64,000 nt of DNA from Pseudoxanthomonas japonensis (GTDB taxonomy: Bacteria > Pseudomonadota > Gammaproteobacteria > Xanthomonadales > Xanthomonadaceae), in the NCBI RefSeq assembly GCF_010093445.1, contig NZ_PDWW01000022.1, positions 1-64,000 of the forward strand, in the 5' to 3' direction. Position 1 is the stretch's first letter. Every line of letters begins with the position of its first letter. The notes beneath the pieces are model-generated. The model ran no database searches and was not told where the DNA came from. It worked only from the letters and a program-made list of their open reading frames with translations. Both the position numbers and the translations under genes were made by a program. Below, piece after piece: positions 7,521-24,180 of this stretch.

Positions 7521-8778
7521 ATGACGTTGTGGGTCCTCGGATTGAACCACCAGACCGCGCCGGTCGACCTGCGCGAACGGGTGGCATTCGACGCCGGCAC
7601 GGTGCCGCACGCGTTGTCGTCGCTGCGGGCGCTGCCCGACGTGGTCGAAGCCGCCCTGCTCTCCACCTGCAACCGCACCGAGCTGTACGCGGTGGCCGAA
7701 AACGGCGACGTGCTGGCGAGCTGGCTGGCGACCCACGCCGAAGGGCTTGAAGGCTATCTCTATCGGCACCGCGACGCCGACGCCGTCCGCCACCTGTTCC
7801 GCGTCGCGACCGGGCTGGATTCGATGGTGCTCGGCGAGCCGCAGATCCTCGGCCAGGTGAAGGACGCCTGGGCCACGGCGCGGGAACACGGCGCGCTCGG
7901 CAACCGCCTCGACCGCCTGTTCCAGCAGACCTTCGCCGTGGCCAAGCGCGCGCGCACCGACACCCGCGTCGGCGCCAACCCGGTCTCGGTCGCCTCCACC
8001 GCCGTGCGCCTGGCGCAGAACTCCTTCGCCCGCCTCAGCGAGTCCACGGTGCTGCTGGTCGGCGCCGGCGAAACCATCGAACTGGCGGCCAAGCACTTGA
8101 GCGAAGGCAAGGTGCGCCGGCTGCTGGTCGCCAACCGCACCTTGGCGCACGCGCAGGAACTGGCCACCCGCCACGGCGGCTACGCCCTGCCCTTGACCGA
8201 ACTGGAACGCCACCTGGCCGAAGCCGACGTGGTGTTCTCCGCCACCGCCGCGCGCGAGCCGGTGGTGCTGCAGGCGCAAGTGGCCGCCGCACTGGCCAAG
8301 CGCAAGCACAAGCCGATGCTGCTGTTCGACCTGGCCGTGCCGCGCGACATCGAGGCCTCGGTCGCCGAACTGCGCGATGCCTACCTCTACACCGTCGACG
8401 ACCTGGAACGTGCGGTCGAAGACAACCGGCGTGGTCGCCGCGAGGCGGCAGACGCTGCCGAAGCGATCATCGACGTGCAGGTCGGCCGTTTCATGGAGCA
8501 CCTGCACGCCGGTTCGCGCCAGGAACCGCTCAAGCGCCTGCGCGCACTGGGCGAATCCACCCGCGAGGACGTGCTGGCGAAGGCCCGCCAGCAACTCGCC
8601 AACGGCCGCGAGCCTGCGCAGGTCCTCGAATTCCTCGCCCACACGCTGACCAACCGCCTGCTGCATCCGCCGACCGCGGCACTGCGCGAAGCCGCCATGA
8701 GCGGCGATGCCGAACTCGCGCGCGCCGCCGATCGCCTGTTTCCCGCGCAGCCGCCCTATTCCCACCTGAAGAAAGACG

Positions 8779-8801
<23 letters not shown>
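7521..8801 (+). CDS. hemA: Glutamyl-tRNA reductase
   Basis: HemA reduces Glu-tRNA(Glu) to glutamate-1-semialdehyde, the first committed step of C5-pathway tetrapyrrole synthesis. The protein is 426 residues. The N-terminus [20 protein letters not shown] holds the family signature, and LLSTCNRTE carries the catalytic Cys50. The NADPH domain includes [17 protein letters not shown], and the C-terminal dimerisation helix ends near residue 420. The start is 68 nt from the divergent TPR gene. The 3' end overlaps prfA by 23 bases, the usual hemA-prfA arrangement. Confidence 0.97.
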
Positions 8802-9864
<1,063 letters not shown>

Positions 9865-17584: not shown

Positions 17585-18288
17585 CGCGCCTCGCACTTGC
17601 GCTGCTGCTGGGCCTGCTGGCGCCGTGCGCGTGGGCGCAGGACGAGGTCTGCGAACCTGCCGATGCCGGGCGCGCGGAGAACCGCGACGGAACCGTGCTG
17701 ACCGCAATGACCGAGTGCGTCCCGCCCGGGCTGCGCCGCCATGTCGCCACGCTCACCTGCGAGGCGGGACGCGTCTGCGACCGGCTGGAGCTCACGCAGG
17801 AGGTGGCCTACAACCGCATGGGCCACGTCGACCTGGTGGACCTGGACCAGGACGGGATGTACGAGGTCGAGGTCCGTGGCATGTGCGGCGCCGGGCCGAA
17901 CTGCGAAGGCGATGTCTACCGGATCGATCCGGCCACGCGGACGCTGCAGCACTTCTTCAGCGGCGGCTACTACGAGCTGCAGGTCATCGACGGCTGGCTG
18001 GTGGAAGCCGGGCGCAGCAGTTGCTGCAGCTGGGAATTCCATCTGTGGCAGCTGGATGCACCGCACGACCTGCCGCTCGAGTACGACACCATGGACCTGA
18101 TGGTGCAGGTGGATGCCAGCGGGGACGACGACGGCACCGTCACCGGGGTGACCTGCACGTTCACCCGGCAAAGCGGCGATAATTCGCAGGTGGTGGCCCC
18201 GCCCTCGCGCGCGCTGGAACGGATCTGCGAGCACTACGGCGAGCCCTACGAACTGACTTCCCCGGATACAACGCCAGGCGCGCCGTGA
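17581..18288 (+). CDS. Exported protein of unknown function
   Basis: A 235-residue protein with a clear signal peptide, MTRLALALLLGLLAPCAWAQ. The mature part has ten or more cysteines. A segment GHVDLVDLDQDGMYEVEVRG resembles the calcium-binding DxDxDG repeat found in FG-GAP-like proteins, and SSCCSWEFHLWQL follows. No full domain was recognised. It is probably periplasmic and disulphide-bonded. The start overlaps the DUF2069 stop (ATGA). The next gene begins 20 nt downstream. Confidence 0.7.
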   Translation: MTRLALALLLGLLAPCAWAQDEVCEPADAGRAENRDGTVLTAMTECVPPGLRRHVATLTCEAGRVCDRLELTQEVAYNRMGHVDLVDLDQDGMYEVEVRGMCGAGPNCEGDVYRIDPATRTLQHFFSGGYYELQVIDGWLVEAGRSSCCSWEFHLWQLDAPHDLPLEYDTMDLMVQVDASGDDDGTVTGVTCTFTRQSGDNSQVVAPPSRALERICEHYGEPYELTSPDTTPGAP

Positions 18289-18308
18289 GCGCCGGCAGGA
18301 GCCTTGAG

Positions 18309-18794
18309 ATGGACGAGCTGCTGATCGTCACCACCGGTGGCACGATCGACAAGATCTACTTCGATGACAAGTCCGACTACCAGATCGGCGATCCGCAGAT
18401 CGGCATGATCCTGCGCGAGCTGGGGGTGACGTTCCGCTTCACGGTCATCCCGATCCTGCGCAAGGATTCGCTGCACATCACCGACGAGGACCGCGAGCTG
18501 GTCCGCGCGACCATCGCGGCGCAGCCGACGAAGCACGTGCTGGTGACGCACGGCACCGACAGCATGGTGCAGACGGGCCATGTGCTGGCCACCATCCCGG
18601 ACAAGACCATCGTGATGACCGGCGCCCTCAGCCCGGCCCGCTTCCGCGGCTCGGACGCGGAGTTCAACATCGGCTGCGCCATCGGCGCGGTGCAGTCGCT
18701 GCCGACGGGCGTGTACATCGCCATGAACGGGCGGATCTGGGATCCGGCGAAGGTCAGGAAGAACGTGGCGGCGAACCGGTTCGAGGCGGTCTGA
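18309..18794 (+). CDS. Asparaginase N-domain protein (short, single-domain)
   Basis: A 161-residue protein equal to the N-terminal catalytic domain only of type I/II L-asparaginase (usually about 330 residues). Both threonine motifs are present: VTTGGTIDK near the start and VLVTHGTDSM near residue 80. The C-terminal domain that completes the active site in true asparaginases is absent. Enzymatic activity is therefore doubtful; it may act as a homomer or on other amides. The ATG at 18309 has a GGAG Shine-Dalgarno. A GTG eight codons earlier overlaps the previous stop. A decayed second copy lies at 19.4-19.6 kb. Confidence 0.8.
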   Translation: MDELLIVTTGGTIDKIYFDDKSDYQIGDPQIGMILRELGVTFRFTVIPILRKDSLHITDEDRELVRATIAAQPTKHVLVTHGTDSMVQTGHVLATIPDKTIVMTGALSPARFRGSDAEFNIGCAIGAVQSLPTGVYIAMNGRIWDPAKVRKNVAANRFEAV

Positions 18795-18924: not shown

Positions 18925-19290
18925 CTACGGCGGCGAGATGACATAGGCGCAGAGGTCTGCCGAGGTCGGGACGGCCTTTGCCCCCATGGCCTCGTAGAGC
19001 GAGATTGCGCGGTGATTGCTTGCGCGCACATTGTTGACCACCAGCTCCCGGCACCCCTTGTCGCGTGCCTTCTTCCGCAAGCGCTCGATCACCATGCTGC
19101 CGTAGCCCCGCGAGCGCTGCCTGGAATCGATCTCGATCTTTTCCAGCACAAAGCTCGCCCCGGGCTCGAACCAGCCATGGGCACGCCCTACCCGGCGGCC
19201 GGCGAGCCACGGCTCGACGACATAGTGCCGCCGCTGCTCGCTCTCTTCGAAGCGCCAGTCTGTTTTCAATTGGAGTTGGTTTGCTTTCAA
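18925..19290 (-). CDS. GNAT-family N-acetyltransferase
   Basis: A 121-residue GNAT domain. Motif A is EKIEIDSRQRSRGYGSMVIE (R-x-x-G-x-G/S loop), followed by ELVVNNVRASNHRAISLYEA and MGA, the usual motif B. The N-terminus lacks the first strands of a full GNAT fold, so the protein is short for the family. The substrate is unknown. It lies on the opposite strand between the intact and the decayed asparaginase-like genes, so it probably arrived with the rearrangement that duplicated them. Confidence 0.8.
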   Translation of the reverse strand: MKANQLQLKTDWRFEESEQRRHYVVEPWLAGRRVGRAHGWFEPGASFVLEKIEIDSRQRSRGYGSMVIERLRKKARDKGCRELVVNNVRASNHRAISLYEAMGAKAVPTSADLCAYVISPP

Positions 19291-19397
19291 TGATGGCCTA
19301 TTGGGCTACGGTGGCCGCACGCCTGACTCAGGCCGGACCGCTTCGCGGGAACGGCCAAGGGAAACAGGGGTCGGAGAACGGGGGCGCAGAGTACCTT

Positions 19398-19637
19398 GTC
19401 CAAGCTGATCCGCGCGTGTATCGCGGGGCAGCCAAAGAGGTACGTGCTGGTGACGCATGGCTCGGACAGCACGCGGACCGGCCATGTGCTGGCGTCCATC
19501 GCGGCTCGGGCGCGGCGTTCAACATCGGCGCGGTGCAGTCGCTGCCCACGGACGTGTACATCGCCATGAACGGATGGATCCGGGATCCGTCGAAGACGAG
19601 GAAGAACGTGACGGCCAATCGGTTCGAGGCGCTTTGA
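19398..19637 (+). pseudogene. Decayed second copy of the asparaginase-like gene
   Basis: This stretch aligns with the 3' half of the gene at 18309-18794. One frame reads YVLVTHGSDSTRTGHVLASI; after a deletion, another reads AFNIGAVQSLPTDVYIAMNG and ends TANRFEAL before TGA. About 50 bases that encode the IPDKTIVMTGALSPARFRG segment in the intact gene are missing, which shifts the frame. No start region is left. The sequence after the stop, including the hairpin, also matches. It is a tandem duplication remnant. Confidence 0.88.
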
Positions 19638-19665
19638 CGGCGCGGCGCTACTGGTCACAGCAACG

Positions 19666-19691
19666 ACAAGGCCCGCGCATGCGGGCCTTGT
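19666..19691 (+). terminator. Duplicate hairpin terminator
   Basis: ACAAGGCCCGC and GCGGGCCTTGT pair around a CAT-containing loop. It is the same stem as at 18822-18847 and is preceded by the same CAGCAACG bases, so it was copied together with the decayed gene. Confidence 0.7.
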
Positions 19692-19799
19692 GATTCATGA
19701 GGCGGGAAAATGGTCTATGGCCCTTATTTCCAAGTGCTTATCTGCGGGTAGAGCGTAGCGAGTGTGGTAGGCATCTAACGCCTTATGTCTTTGAACTTC

Positions 19800-20917
<1,118 letters not shown>

Positions 20918-20996
20918 CCATTCATCGGAAGACAGTTGCTGAACTAAGCCGAACCGCGAAGCGGCTGGGAGTTCCTACGAAAAAGTGGACACCTAT

Positions 20997-21214
20997 TCAC
21001 TGCTGGCATTGCTCGAACTCAATCGGTGATCGATAGCCCAGTGCCGGGTGCAGGCGCCGGTGGTTGTAGAACTGGATGTAGTCGTTGACGGCCATGCGCA
21101 GCGAGCGATCACTGTTGAAGCGGTGGCGATGATACATGTCCGACTTCATCGGCTTGCTCCATGACTCCATGTGTGCGTTGTCGTTCATGCGACGCGGCCG
21201 GTTGAACGATGCCG
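20997..21214 (-). pseudogene. IS3-family transposase remnant (C-terminal end of OrfB)
   Basis: About 72 codons that match the end of an IS3-family integrase-core transposase: [20 protein letters not shown] then [20 protein letters not shown] and [20 protein letters not shown] with a stop at 20997. The rest of OrfB and all of OrfA are missing. A GTGGACACC-containing sequence at about 20984-20992, just outside the stop, may be the right-hand inverted repeat. The left side stops exactly where the membrane-protein gene ends (21215). Confidence 0.85.
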
Positions 21215-21775
21215 CTAAGGCTGCGGTCTCGGCCTGGCCGCGCGGTACTGACCCCTGTCGCCCACACGCGACCCGCCCGGATCGCCATTCGTACAGATGA
21301 CGCCCCCACAGATCACGGCATCCGAGGCGTAGAACGCTTGGACGACCGGCACAGCGTCTTCGTAACGCTGGAGCTCTTCCTTCGTGGCGGCGAGTTCGCG
21401 CCGGTAGTAACCCAATACCGTCCAGCCGACGACAAGTACCATCAGCAGGATGGCCCCGGCGGCGCCGAGCCACCCCCAAACCGTTCTGCCGGCGCTCCGC
21501 AGTTGTGCGGATGCCCCGGATACCGCGCGACCGTACTCCGCGGCCATCGGCGAAACGGCCTCTTTGGCATCCAGTGCGATGCGGTTGCCCGCCCCCTCCA
21601 CGATGGCGGCAATGTCGCGACGGAACTGCGCGACCTCCTGTCGCAGCGACTGCACCCGATCGTTAATCGCCGCGCTCATGCGCGCCTCGCGCTGGACCAT
21701 CTCGGCGCGCAGCATCATCAGGGTCTTGATGGCATCTACGGGCATGACCGCGGGTGCAGCGTTGACGTCATCCAT
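21215..21775 (-). CDS. Single-pass membrane protein of unknown function (third gene of the lysozyme operon)
   Basis: A 186-residue protein. Residues 1-95 are helical and charged ([20 protein letters not shown], coiled-coil-like). One transmembrane segment, [20 protein letters not shown], is followed by a tail with [13 protein letters not shown] that has two cysteines. It follows the lysozyme gene by 51 nt and has a perfect AAGGAGGT Shine-Dalgarno, so it is part of that operon. The stop abuts an IS3 remnant, so the last residues may be changed. No family was recognised with certainty; it may be a secretion accessory or second immunity protein (inference). Confidence 0.7.
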
Positions 21776-21826: not shown

Positions 21827-23278
21827 CTAACGCGCCATCTGCCGATCCTGAGCCTGGGCCTGTTCCGCCGCCTGATGCTGCGCGAGCAATCGTTCACCCT
21901 GGCCTTCTATGTGCCGACCTTCCGCGGAGCGCGCGAATTCGGTGGCCACACGATCGACCAAGGCACTGTCGCCCGACAGGATCGCCGCGAGGTAACGCTC
22001 GGCCACTAATTCGTTGAACGCTCCGGGTGGGTGGTGATGCATACCTTGTCGCTCATTCAAGCCCTGGTCTCGCCCTTGTCCCGGCGGTTGCTGCGGCTGC
22101 TGCTGCGCATCGCGAAGCTCCCTACGACGCAGCACCTCAGTCGCTTCCTGTAGCCCCTGCTCAACGGCACGGGAATTGACTGCGTCGCGGGTACGCTCAT
22201 CGGCCAATCCATTGGCGGGTGCGATGTCCGCGCTATTCTGGAATTGGCGAACGGCATCCTGCGTAGAGTTGTCGTAACTACGACTGACGCCCAGCGGCCG
22301 ACCATTGCTGCCTCGAAAACCTAGTCCCCTTAGCTGTTCCTGCAACTCGGCAACCGAATCGCCGCGCTCACCGGGGCGGAGAACTCCGTCGTTCAAAGGT
22401 CCGTACAAGTCCATTATGGTCTTGAGCTTGAAGTTTGGATTGGCCCGCAATGTATCGTCCCGAACCCGGTCGAGTAGTGCTTGATCTACCACTCCCGTCT
22501 GCGGCTCAATGCCTACCTCGCGCTGATAGGTTCTCACGGCCTGTTCGGTCGAGCGCCCGAAGTCGCCGTCGGGTGACAGAGGCCGGCCGGCAGCATCACC
22601 AATGTTCAAAGCGGCAAGGTACTGTTGCAGCTCGAAGGCGCGAGCGCTCGCGTCGCCGCGCTGGATTGGCATATCGGCCTGGCGCACTTCCTGCGCCAGC
22701 ACCAGATCTACACCGTTGCGTCTGACCGATGTGACCAGGTCACCTATGGCCGGCTCCCAATCGCGTGCAAGCACTGCAATATCAGCCGCTCGATCAACGC
22801 CATTCACTATCCTGCGGGCGTTGAAGTAATCGGAACGATCGTCGGCGATGTAGTCATCCAGTCCGCGCCCCGTGAACAGGCCATCGCGCATGCCGACAAC
22901 GAGAACCCGGGAAGCCACCTCCGGATCCGCTGCGAGGGAAGGATCGAGCGCAAGTTCGTCGCCTTGCCCGATTGCCCGACCGACATTCCGGTAGTTCGGC
23001 CAGTGCGTCACATGTGCGTAACCTCGCCCAAAGTATTCCTCACCCCCTTTGTAGCCACCCTGCTCATTACCCTCATAGCCTCTTCGTGCTGCTTGCTTGC
23101 GACCATGAACCTCTTCGGGGCTGGTGAAATCCTGGCTTTCATGTTCTGCGGTCGCCAATACGTATGCGATCTGTCGCTCGTTCGTGACTCCTTCTTCCAG
23201 ACAGGTCTGTACGATAAGGCGAACTGCCTGGTCGCGGGTTATCGGGGATGGCGCGCTACGCCCGTATCCGTCGCTCAT
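21827..23278 (-). CDS. GH19-type peptidoglycan hydrolase with two peptidoglycan-binding domains; likely secreted antibacterial effector
   Basis: A 483-residue protein with no N-terminal signal peptide. Residues 15-180 resemble the GH19 chitinase/lysozyme fold: catalytic-type Glu in LATAEHESQDF (E45), then EEYFGRGYAHVTHWPNYRNV. Two peptidoglycan-binding-1 repeats follow: about 212-275 (LSPDGDFGRSTEQAVRTYQ) and 300-368 (RGDSVAELQEQLRGLGF). The C-terminal tail is Gln-rich (390-405 and 465-483). The layout resembles X. citri type IV secretion effector XAC2609, but I do not see the canonical XVIPCD motif. The start ATG overlaps the lipoprotein stop (ATGA) with a GGAG Shine-Dalgarno. Confidence 0.82.
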   Translation of the reverse strand: MSDGYGRSAPSPITRDQAVRLIVQTCLEEGVTNERQIAYVLATAEHESQDFTSPEEVHGRKQAARRGYEGNEQGGYKGGEEYFGRGYAHVTHWPNYRNVGRAIGQGDELALDPSLAADPEVASRVLVVGMRDGLFTGRGLDDYIADDRSDYFNARRIVNGVDRAADIAVLARDWEPAIGDLVTSVRRNGVDLVLAQEVRQADMPIQRGDASARAFELQQYLAALNIGDAAGRPLSPDGDFGRSTEQAVRTYQREVGIEPQTGVVDQALLDRVRDDTLRANPNFKLKTIMDLYGPLNDGVLRPGERGDSVAELQEQLRGLGFRGSNGRPLGVSRSYDNSTQDAVRQFQNSADIAPANGLADERTRDAVNSRAVEQGLQEATEVLRRRELRDAQQQPQQPPGQGRDQGLNERQGMHHHPPGAFNELVAERYLAAILSGDSALVDRVATEFARSAEGRHIEGQGERLLAQHQAAEQAQAQDRQMAR

Positions 23279-24057
23279 TGTGGATCTCCTTCCAGTTTCA
23301 TCCATGAATCATCGAAGATTTCCTTACTCTCCAGCGCGTTCTCGCCGCAGGTTGTGTAGTCCCTGCTCGCCAACACCACCGCAGTATTTTCTCTAATTCC
23401 TATCACTTTCTCACCGCGATCGCATGGCCCGCTGCGATACCAAGCAAACAGACGGCCATCGACGATGCGGGAAAGCGAATGCCATTCCATCAGTTTCGCG
23501 AGCGATTTGTTCTCCACCAATCGCCTGGCGTTCGCGTCATAGAGAAAATAGGTGTACGAAGGATCGCCGTAGGTACCGTCGGAGCCACTCCAGACAACGA
23601 CATCTTCATGTCCATCAACATTGATGTCCGACAGCATGACGCCGTGTCGACCTTTGGCAAACCCTTCAGCCAGCGACCCCCGATAGCCCGTCTCTTCTGG
23701 CCGATCCGGTGGGACCGCCTTCGGAATCCAGACTTCCGGGAGCAACAACGTCTGCTGGCGCAGCGTAGAGGTCGAGATCGTCAGCCGCGCATTGCTACAG
23801 ATCAGCCTGTTTATCATTCGATCTGAACAGCCATCCGTTTGCAGGATGATCCTGGCATCACCAAGACTCATCTCCATGAACCCGCTGTCGTCAGGCAGGT
23901 CCTCGGCGTACATCGGCTCCAGCTCAGCCTCTTGGGCAGCACCAGGATGTACATTCGCGACGCTTTGGCAACCTGACAGCATCGCAACGGCCAACACACC
24001 GACAAGGTGCTCGTGCCAGTGCCACCACGGCCCAATCGCTCCCCTGCATCGCTTCAT
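23275..24057 (-). CDS. Lipoprotein, probable inhibitor (immunity protein) of the adjacent lysozyme
   Basis: A 260-residue lipoprotein: after KRCRG and a Trp/His-rich start comes VLAVAMLSGC with acylation Cys30. The central motif SDINVDGHEDVVVWSG (about 143-158) is a DxNxDGxxD calcium-binding loop like that in XAC2610, the known inhibitor of effector XAC2609. The C-terminus contains several Cys. The ATG at 24055-24057 was chosen over an upstream start (24138) to give a proper lipobox position. It is first in the operon, ahead of the lysozyme, which fits an immunity gene that protects the producer's periplasm. Confidence 0.78.
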   Translation of the reverse strand: MKRCRGAIGPWWHWHEHLVGVLAVAMLSGCQSVANVHPGAAQEAELEPMYAEDLPDDSGFMEMSLGDARIILQTDGCSDRMINRLICSNARLTISTSTLRQQTLLLPEVWIPKAVPPDRPEETGYRGSLAEGFAKGRHGVMLSDINVDGHEDVVVWSGSDGTYGDPSYTYFLYDANARRLVENKSLAKLMEWHSLSRIVDGRLFAWYRSGPCDRGEKVIGIRENTAVVLASRDYTTCGENALESKEIFDDSWMKLEGDPQ

Positions 24058-24180
24058 GAGCCCATGGCCGCAACGGGCTAGAACCACTCGCGTGCTTGCT
24101 CGCGCATAAAAAGCGGGAAGAAAATATTCGCAAGACACTGCACAACCTCCTGTCGGGTTCTGCCATCCCTAGCTTCAGGA

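Follow-up and report, generated by a model that had tools for sequence, protein, structure and literature searches.

Among the proteins known to assist substrates of type IV secretion systems (T4SSs), IcmS and IcmW are soluble, and MobB of the IncQ plasmid R1162 is a small membrane protein that helps its DNA-protein substrate to engage the T4SS and whose gene lies beside that of the relaxase. For the bacteria-killing, Xanthomonadales-like T4SS (X-T4SS), the choice of toxins by the coupling ATPase VirD4 has so far been studied through the XVIPCD, a domain at the C-terminus of the toxins. The fold of this domain is given as alpha-alpha-beta-beta-beta in PMC10432156. Here, we analyzed a stretch of 64,000 nucleotides from Pseudoxanthomonas japonensis (assembly GCF_010093445.1, contig NZ_PDWW01000022.1, positions 1 to 64,000 of the forward strand; hereafter, the window), in which a gene for a 186-residue protein with one transmembrane (TM) segment stands third in the order immunity gene, toxin gene, membrane protein gene, 51 bases after the toxin gene and on the same strand. 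We refer to this protein and its relatives as the TM family, and to the C-terminal domain of the toxins that accompany them as the GD domain. It is well supported that the TM-family protein belongs to a toxin-delivery cassette linked to the VirB/VirD4 machine, and we lean, if only slightly, towards the view that it is an adaptor, anchored in the membrane, that brings toxins with a GD tag to VirD4.

The gene occupies positions 21215-21775 of the minus strand, and its Shine-Dalgarno sequence, AAGGAGGTG, is found by eye two bases ahead of the ATG at 21775. Residues 103-121 form the most hydrophobic 19-residue stretch of the protein, and AlphaFold2 predicts, with modest confidence (mean pLDDT 69, pTM 0.26), a single long helix over residues 12-150 followed by a beta hairpin that contains Cys156 and Cys161. 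C156, C161 and Y177 are invariant across 29 diverse family members, and the window protein shows all of the family hallmarks, namely a helical N-terminal region, one TM helix, a C-terminal Cys pair and the Tyr. Its matches in Pfam and NCBIfam are all weak and below cut-off, those in PHROGs are weak as well, and counting charges by the positive-inside rule leaves both membrane orientations possible. An earlier reading of the window from sequence only had described an open reading frame (ORF) for a membrane protein with one TM segment, two C-terminal Cys and a strong ribosome site, all of which our analysis confirms. As a simple ORF picker favored an antisense ORF here, base composition alone is no proof of coding. 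The ORF is nonetheless more than a chance one, as three sense-strand paralogues are present in the same genome (expect values, E, of 4e-62, 6e-41 and 1.5e-8) and a scan of genome contigs found 25 loci in other genomes, named or metagenome-assembled, nearly all from genera that we take to be Lysobacteraceae or Rhodanobacteraceae; these sequence comparisons confirm the gene as a real one. At the same place, C7, the antisense reading matches more weakly than the sense reading (9e-24 vs 4e-62).

As the 3' end of the gene touches an IS3 remnant, the earlier reading had also allowed for truncation. This we reject: DNA similarity to three close relatives stops no more than 2 bases from the end of the stop codon, the C-terminus aligns to its very end with those of the relatives, and the match to an insertion sequence (IS) of the IS3 type begins at the gene's stop (rve_3, at about base 21212), which shows the gene to be complete. 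An NCBIfam IS3 match starts at about 21230, in another frame. A scan for promoters and terminators gave nothing exceeding shuffled sequences.

The linkage of the family to toxins is directly observed. Among 66 distinct members, 48 stand directly after a reading frame with a GD domain, 5 beside virD4 and 13, as judged by this test, beside neither, where it should be noted that the first count is partly circular, as the GD model was built with many of these same toxins. Of the 13, the cassette on a Xanthomonas fragariae plasmid has its GD toxin one gene away, one member has a divergent GD toxin, one a GD domain at a contig end and one a toxin that aligns yet scores weakly; upstream of others, there are IS genes or nothing recognizable. 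Orthologues that consistently follow the lysozyme gene had been proposed as a check of the role in this system: the relatives do mostly follow a toxin gene, but this is not always a lysozyme gene. The P. japonensis genome itself holds four further cassettes of putative immunity protein, toxin and membrane protein, the toxins being of 727 residues (C7), of GH19 type (C33), of 463 residues (C55) and of 498 residues and unknown type (C34). The C7 and C55 toxins are lipase-like by eye, with no Pfam match above cut-off, and the immunity genes of all four cassettes are assigned by position and appearance alone. Across 398 genomes of the phylum, a sample with few genomes of the order, the family model matched 22, which comprise the P. 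japonensis genome, one strong hit (E 3e-22) in another family of the same order, in which a TM-family gene once more comes directly after that of a GD toxin, and 20 weak hits (4e-6 to 8e-4) that we take as coiled-coil noise. A short ORF after a GD toxin elsewhere (L155:868-1005) resembles by eye the first ~25 residues of the TM family and is perhaps a broken copy.

The GD domain consists of the last 50-60 residues of the toxins, which align across toxin groups and are predicted as three helices (block pLDDT 93-98). An XVIPCD as the tag of the window toxin is rejected: PF20410 gave no match in this toxin up to E 1 and none in the genome, hhalign found no detectable relation between the GD domain and six XVIPCDs (probability 0.5 on a scale of 0-100), and a local model of the six matched none of the last 120 residues of 52 GD toxins. 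When a GD model of 18 toxins was run on 8606 ORFs, it matched, outside its training loci, only beside family members, and it had no match in shuffled ORFs. All 23 distinct non-training matches lie beside a family member, one with an intervening gene and one divergent, although four of them are re-fetched training toxins and most loci had been fetched for holding the family. At E<=0.01, this model recovers 20 of 34 other aligned toxins, a test with less circularity than the count above, and the GD membership of the most distant toxins rests on alignment and on a wider model of 41 sequences, which finds the second of two toxins near the vir locus of the P. japonensis genome, not among its training sequences, at E 2e-5. 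In the PDB, Foldseek found no match of the GD domain at E<=0.001; the 20 matches of its sequence profile up to E 1 (best 9e-5) are taken as chance, as many are designed helical proteins and the best covers 14 residues. Three very long toxins of ~1300 residues (L084:1104-5054, L085:5776-9798 and L087:1683-5651) carry a Gly-rich tail after the GD domain, and the called TM-family ORF begins within this tail.

The toxins themselves are diverse. The 49 cassettes that could be compared fall into 14 toxin groups (blastp, E 1e-5), a number that may be too high, as some toxins are cut at locus ends; the other 17 of the 66 rows were dropped, five lying beside virD4 and the others being broken, at a contig end or without a usable adjacent toxin. 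Seven of 19 toxins scanned in Pfam have a domain above cut-off, namely peptidoglycan binding (the window toxin), GH19 (L013), phage lysozyme (L021), a Tle1-like domain (L069), an AHH nuclease (L084) and, in the two toxins of L015, M23/SLT and Lipase_3. These last two (L015:5237-7081 and 8524-9861), which lie near the vir locus of the P. japonensis genome, have GD-type C-termini by alignment and no adjacent partner, the virD4-linked copy of the family being about 13-18 kb away.

Distances between TM-family proteins correlate with those between GD domains (rho 0.69) and weakly with those between toxin bodies (0.31; 49 cassettes), but linked genes co-vary by shared inheritance and such correlations are no proof of contact. 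In pairs of cassettes whose toxins are unrelated (1089 of 1176), the correlation with the GD domain stays at 0.65, and, when near-duplicates are removed (35 cassettes left), it is 0.65 with the GD domain and 0.28 with the toxin body. It is the N-terminal half that follows the GD domain most closely (0.72; partial correlation of 0.54 given the C-terminal part, and of 0.23 in the reverse case), and the C-terminal part is the more conserved of the two. A comparison with Pseudoxanthomonas PXM01 gives a direct view of how the cassette changes. Here, identity reaches 91-95% in the flanking genes, after which DNA similarity breaks off and returns (81%) from window base 22000 until the TM gene ends; past the IS region, a further gene shows 88% identity. 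Between the two toxins, only residues 420-492 are similar (58%), and between the putative immunity proteins, only a stretch of 24 residues that surrounds the lipobox, which means that the toxin body and the immunity gene have been exchanged, while GD domain and membrane protein have been kept.

These results bear on the suggestion, made in the sequence-only reading, that the protein is a second immunity protein, which would shield the producer's own inner membrane or periplasm against the toxin. Such a role would suit a cassette-encoded, membrane-anchored protein with a Cys hairpin that is possibly periplasmic, but we consider it very unlikely, as the family follows 14 toxin groups, an AHH nuclease among them, co-varies weakly with the toxin body and persists where the toxin body and the immunity gene differ, and as one of its subfamilies stands beside virD4. 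The specificity of X-Tfi proteins for one cognate toxin was likewise not found, given the number of toxin groups and the PXM01 exchange. In Pseudoxanthomonas PXM02, an ORF downstream of the cassette (L018:6565-8430) has an end that closely matches the putative PXM01 immunity protein (L017), whose toxin is a different one, as if an orphan immunity gene had been kept.

The second direct linkage is to the secretion machine. The P. japonensis genome contains VirB4 and VirD4 (PF02534, E 5e-112), with other virB genes recognized by eye, and a further family member lies directly upstream of its virD4. We scanned 198 Lysobacteraceae genomes, scoring 16 candidates per genome in the family and virD4-copy scans, so that weak members may be missed, and found the family in 33, the XVIPCD in 78, VirB4 in 77, the GD domain in 44 and VipB in 44. 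VirB4 is present in 29 of the 33 TM-positive genomes (p 3e-10) and the XVIPCD in 30 (p 2e-11), both p-values being too optimistic, as the genomes are related by descent. A model of five virD4-linked copies matched ten of the 198 genomes at E<1e-60 (at E<=0.001, it matched 35, most via other family members). In all nine loci examined, comprising the five used in training and four new ones, the copy immediately precedes virD4, in the same orientation; in the tenth genome, it is found on a contig other than that of VirB4. The nine VirD4s form one clade (support 0.97 in a midpoint-rooted tree of 19 proteins). The vir regions inspected, 20 in number, were hand-chosen, and VirD4 was found in 14 of them. 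At four canonical loci (L103:6798-7040, L104:11540-11782, L106:12271-12549 and L110:11351-11593), a different ORF of 80-92 residues stands directly upstream of virD4, in the place that the TM-family member takes in the other lineage, and a VirB7-like ORF is seen by eye in one sister locus.

Among genomes with VirB4, those with no XVIPCD match make up 6 of the 10 with a virD4-linked copy, versus 4 of the 67 without one (p 1.5e-4, again too optimistic in view of the relatedness of the genomes). The other four of the ten have 1, 1, 1 and 4 XVIPCD matches, and three of the four exceptions among the 67 have weak VirB4 matches. All ten have GD matches at E<=1e-3, with best E values from 3e-9 to 6e-7 in the four new ones. 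VipB, a marker of the type VI secretion system, is found in none of the ten, in 11 of the 33 TM-positive genomes and in 44 of the 198 overall; as it is also absent from the P. japonensis genome, delivery by such a system is disfavored.

Two further explanations should be weighed at this point. The linkage and the co-variation would be equally expected of a T4SS-associated protein that stabilizes, chaperones or regulates GD toxins, holding them at the membrane in an inactive or soluble state until export, and does not guide them to VirD4; alone, this would not account for the frequent absence of the XVIPCD in genomes with a virD4-linked copy, and we regard it as unlikely. A helper that is injected together with the toxin, and then inserts in the inner membrane of the target or aids entry or stability of the toxin there, would agree with the tight coupling to the GD domain, which could then be a surface for pairing rather than a signal for secretion, yet one subfamily adjoins a machine gene and no toxin, and we regard this explanation as rather more unlikely still.

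A secretion adaptor, also suggested by the sequence-only reading, gains support from the toxin linkage, from the virD4-adjacent paralogue and from the co-variation with the toxin C-terminal domain. From these observations, we infer that the protein binds the GD domain, how it is oriented in the membrane, that it docks on VirD4 and that the T4SS exports the toxin, as follows. The N-terminal helical half would lie in the cytosol and bind the toxin of the gene just upstream at its C-terminal GD domain, while the TM helix and the conserved C-terminal Cys hairpin would dock the protein at the inner membrane beside VirD4, which would then take over the toxin for the bacteria-killing T4SS. The virD4-adjacent paralogue may serve toxins with no partner of their own.

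Several observations weigh against the adaptor role and need to be considered. Certain family members lack an adjacent toxin, and 14 of the 34 toxins are missed by the 18-toxin GD model at E<=0.01, including both near the vir locus of P. japonensis (E 0.03 and no match). Four TM-positive genomes lack VirB4, and in four of the TM-positive genomes examined (L093, L102, L103 and L104) virD4 has no copy of the family beside it. GD matches with no adjacent partner are common whether or not a genome has a virD4-linked copy: at E<=1e-5, they make up 17 of 36 where such a copy is present and 25 of 60 where it is absent, and the corresponding counts at E<=1e-10 are 1 of 16 and 11 of 32. The prediction that lone GD toxins would be confined to genomes with a virD4-linked copy thus failed, the counts at E<=1e-10 running in the opposite direction. 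When twelve lone loci were inspected, four (L148, L149, L153 and L159) looked intact and partnerless, in genomes that lack the virD4-linked copy, and others were broken or at contig ends. For lone GD toxins, an adaptor might act in trans; alternatively, they might do without a partner.

A further explanation concerns mobile elements: the protein could be a MobB-like plasmid mobilization protein, or some other membrane protein from a mobile element that lies beside a toxin by chance. One cassette is indeed found on a mobilizable plasmid of X. fragariae, but family matches are present in only 2 of 72,556 plasmid records, both of one X. fragariae plasmid type, and in the record that we inspected, the TM gene forms part of a toxin cassette and lies outside the mob operon, the mob genes being about 2.5 kb away. 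Among the genome loci read by eye, toxin cassettes and virD4 loci prevail, and no relaxase was noticed beside them. The explanation is scarcely credible on these counts, and a relaxase or plasmid partner, with homologues mainly beside relaxase or plasmid genes, as the sequence-only reading had considered, is rejected. The plasmid cassette (pYL19, L016:4879-8314) consists of a GD toxin, a 307-residue unknown protein and the membrane protein, and such cassettes may spread by plasmid.

The features of the window are collected in Table 1. In the window toxin, the peptidoglycan-binding stretches score above the Pfam cut-off and the GH19-like stretch below it. The upstream gene matches NCBIfam NF047539 (XAC2610_fam) with 41.6 bits against a cut-off of 35, and its product has a lipobox-like LSGC by eye. 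Further towards the start of the window, a degenerate second copy (19380-19640, plus strand, by eye) of the 3' part of an asparaginase-like gene (18285-18794, plus strand) sits between the gene itself and the IS110 element; a repeat scan of 19200-21300 gave nothing of use.

Table 1 Coordinates of the cassette and of the adjoining mobile elements in the window.
Feature	Position	Strand	Remarks
TM-family protein gene	21215..21775	minus	186 aa, ORF; long helix, TM 103-121 and C-terminal hairpin predicted
Putative toxin (effector), 492 aa	21827..23305	minus	GH19-like stretch, two peptidoglycan-binding stretches, C-terminal GD domain
GD domain of the window toxin	21851..22030	minus	proposed as the delivery tag; three predicted helices, end rich in Gln
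Putative immunity lipoprotein, related to X. citri XAC2610	23275..24138	minus	start codon uncertain
IS3-family transposase remnant (rve domain)	20997..21212	minus	abuts the 3' end of the TM gene; outside the system
IS110-family transposase	19994..20917	plus	adjoins the IS3 remnant; outside the system

We found no description of such a family or of the GD domain in titles and the beginnings of abstracts, which does not in itself show absence from print; the TM family is apparently undescribed. It provides a concrete candidate for a VirD4 adaptor, or for the equivalent of one in a sister system, and the GD model makes a hidden class of toxins findable, as the 41-sequence model marks 8 places in the P. 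japonensis genome and the XVIPCD model marks none. More tentatively, and as a possibility that falls a little short of likely, the results may reflect a second lineage of bacteria-killing T4SS in the Lysobacterales, in which the XVIPCD has largely been dropped and another C-terminal tag is read by a membrane-anchored adaptor whose copies away from virD4 travel with the toxins. If true, each cassette would supply its own delivery receptor along with toxin and immunity, and could be plugged into host machines.

Compared with known systems, the family differs from MobB of R1162 in that MobB is encoded in a relaxase operon, whereas the neighbors of the TM family, read by eye, are toxins or virD4. 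IcmS and IcmW of the Dot/Icm T4SS aid the coupling ATPase DotL in effector recruitment (PMC10432156), as is proposed here for VirD4; in this comparison, which is by role and not by sequence, they are part of the machine, whereas here membrane-anchored copies accompany single toxins. The atypical effectors Le1637 and XAC2247 (PMC10989847) are also T4SS-effector homologues without an XVIPCD and with a neighboring immunity protein, but in the main text of that paper, the terms 'transmembrane', 'membrane protein' and 'adaptor' occur 0 times. The closest likeness is to the X-Tfe/X-Tfi pairs of the X-T4SS, which, as described in PMC6536674, share with our cassettes toxins with peptidoglycan or lipid hydrolase domains and a Gln-rich C-terminal tail, an immunity lipoprotein of the XAC2610 family encoded upstream, and VirB4 and VirD4 in the genome; the window toxin, which by eye has no signal peptide, is likewise preceded by an X-Tfi-type gene, in a genome with VirB4 and VirD4. 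They differ in that here, where neither the window toxin nor the genome has an XVIPCD match, the toxin ends in a three-helix GD tag instead of an XVIPCD, and a third gene, for the membrane protein, follows the toxin.
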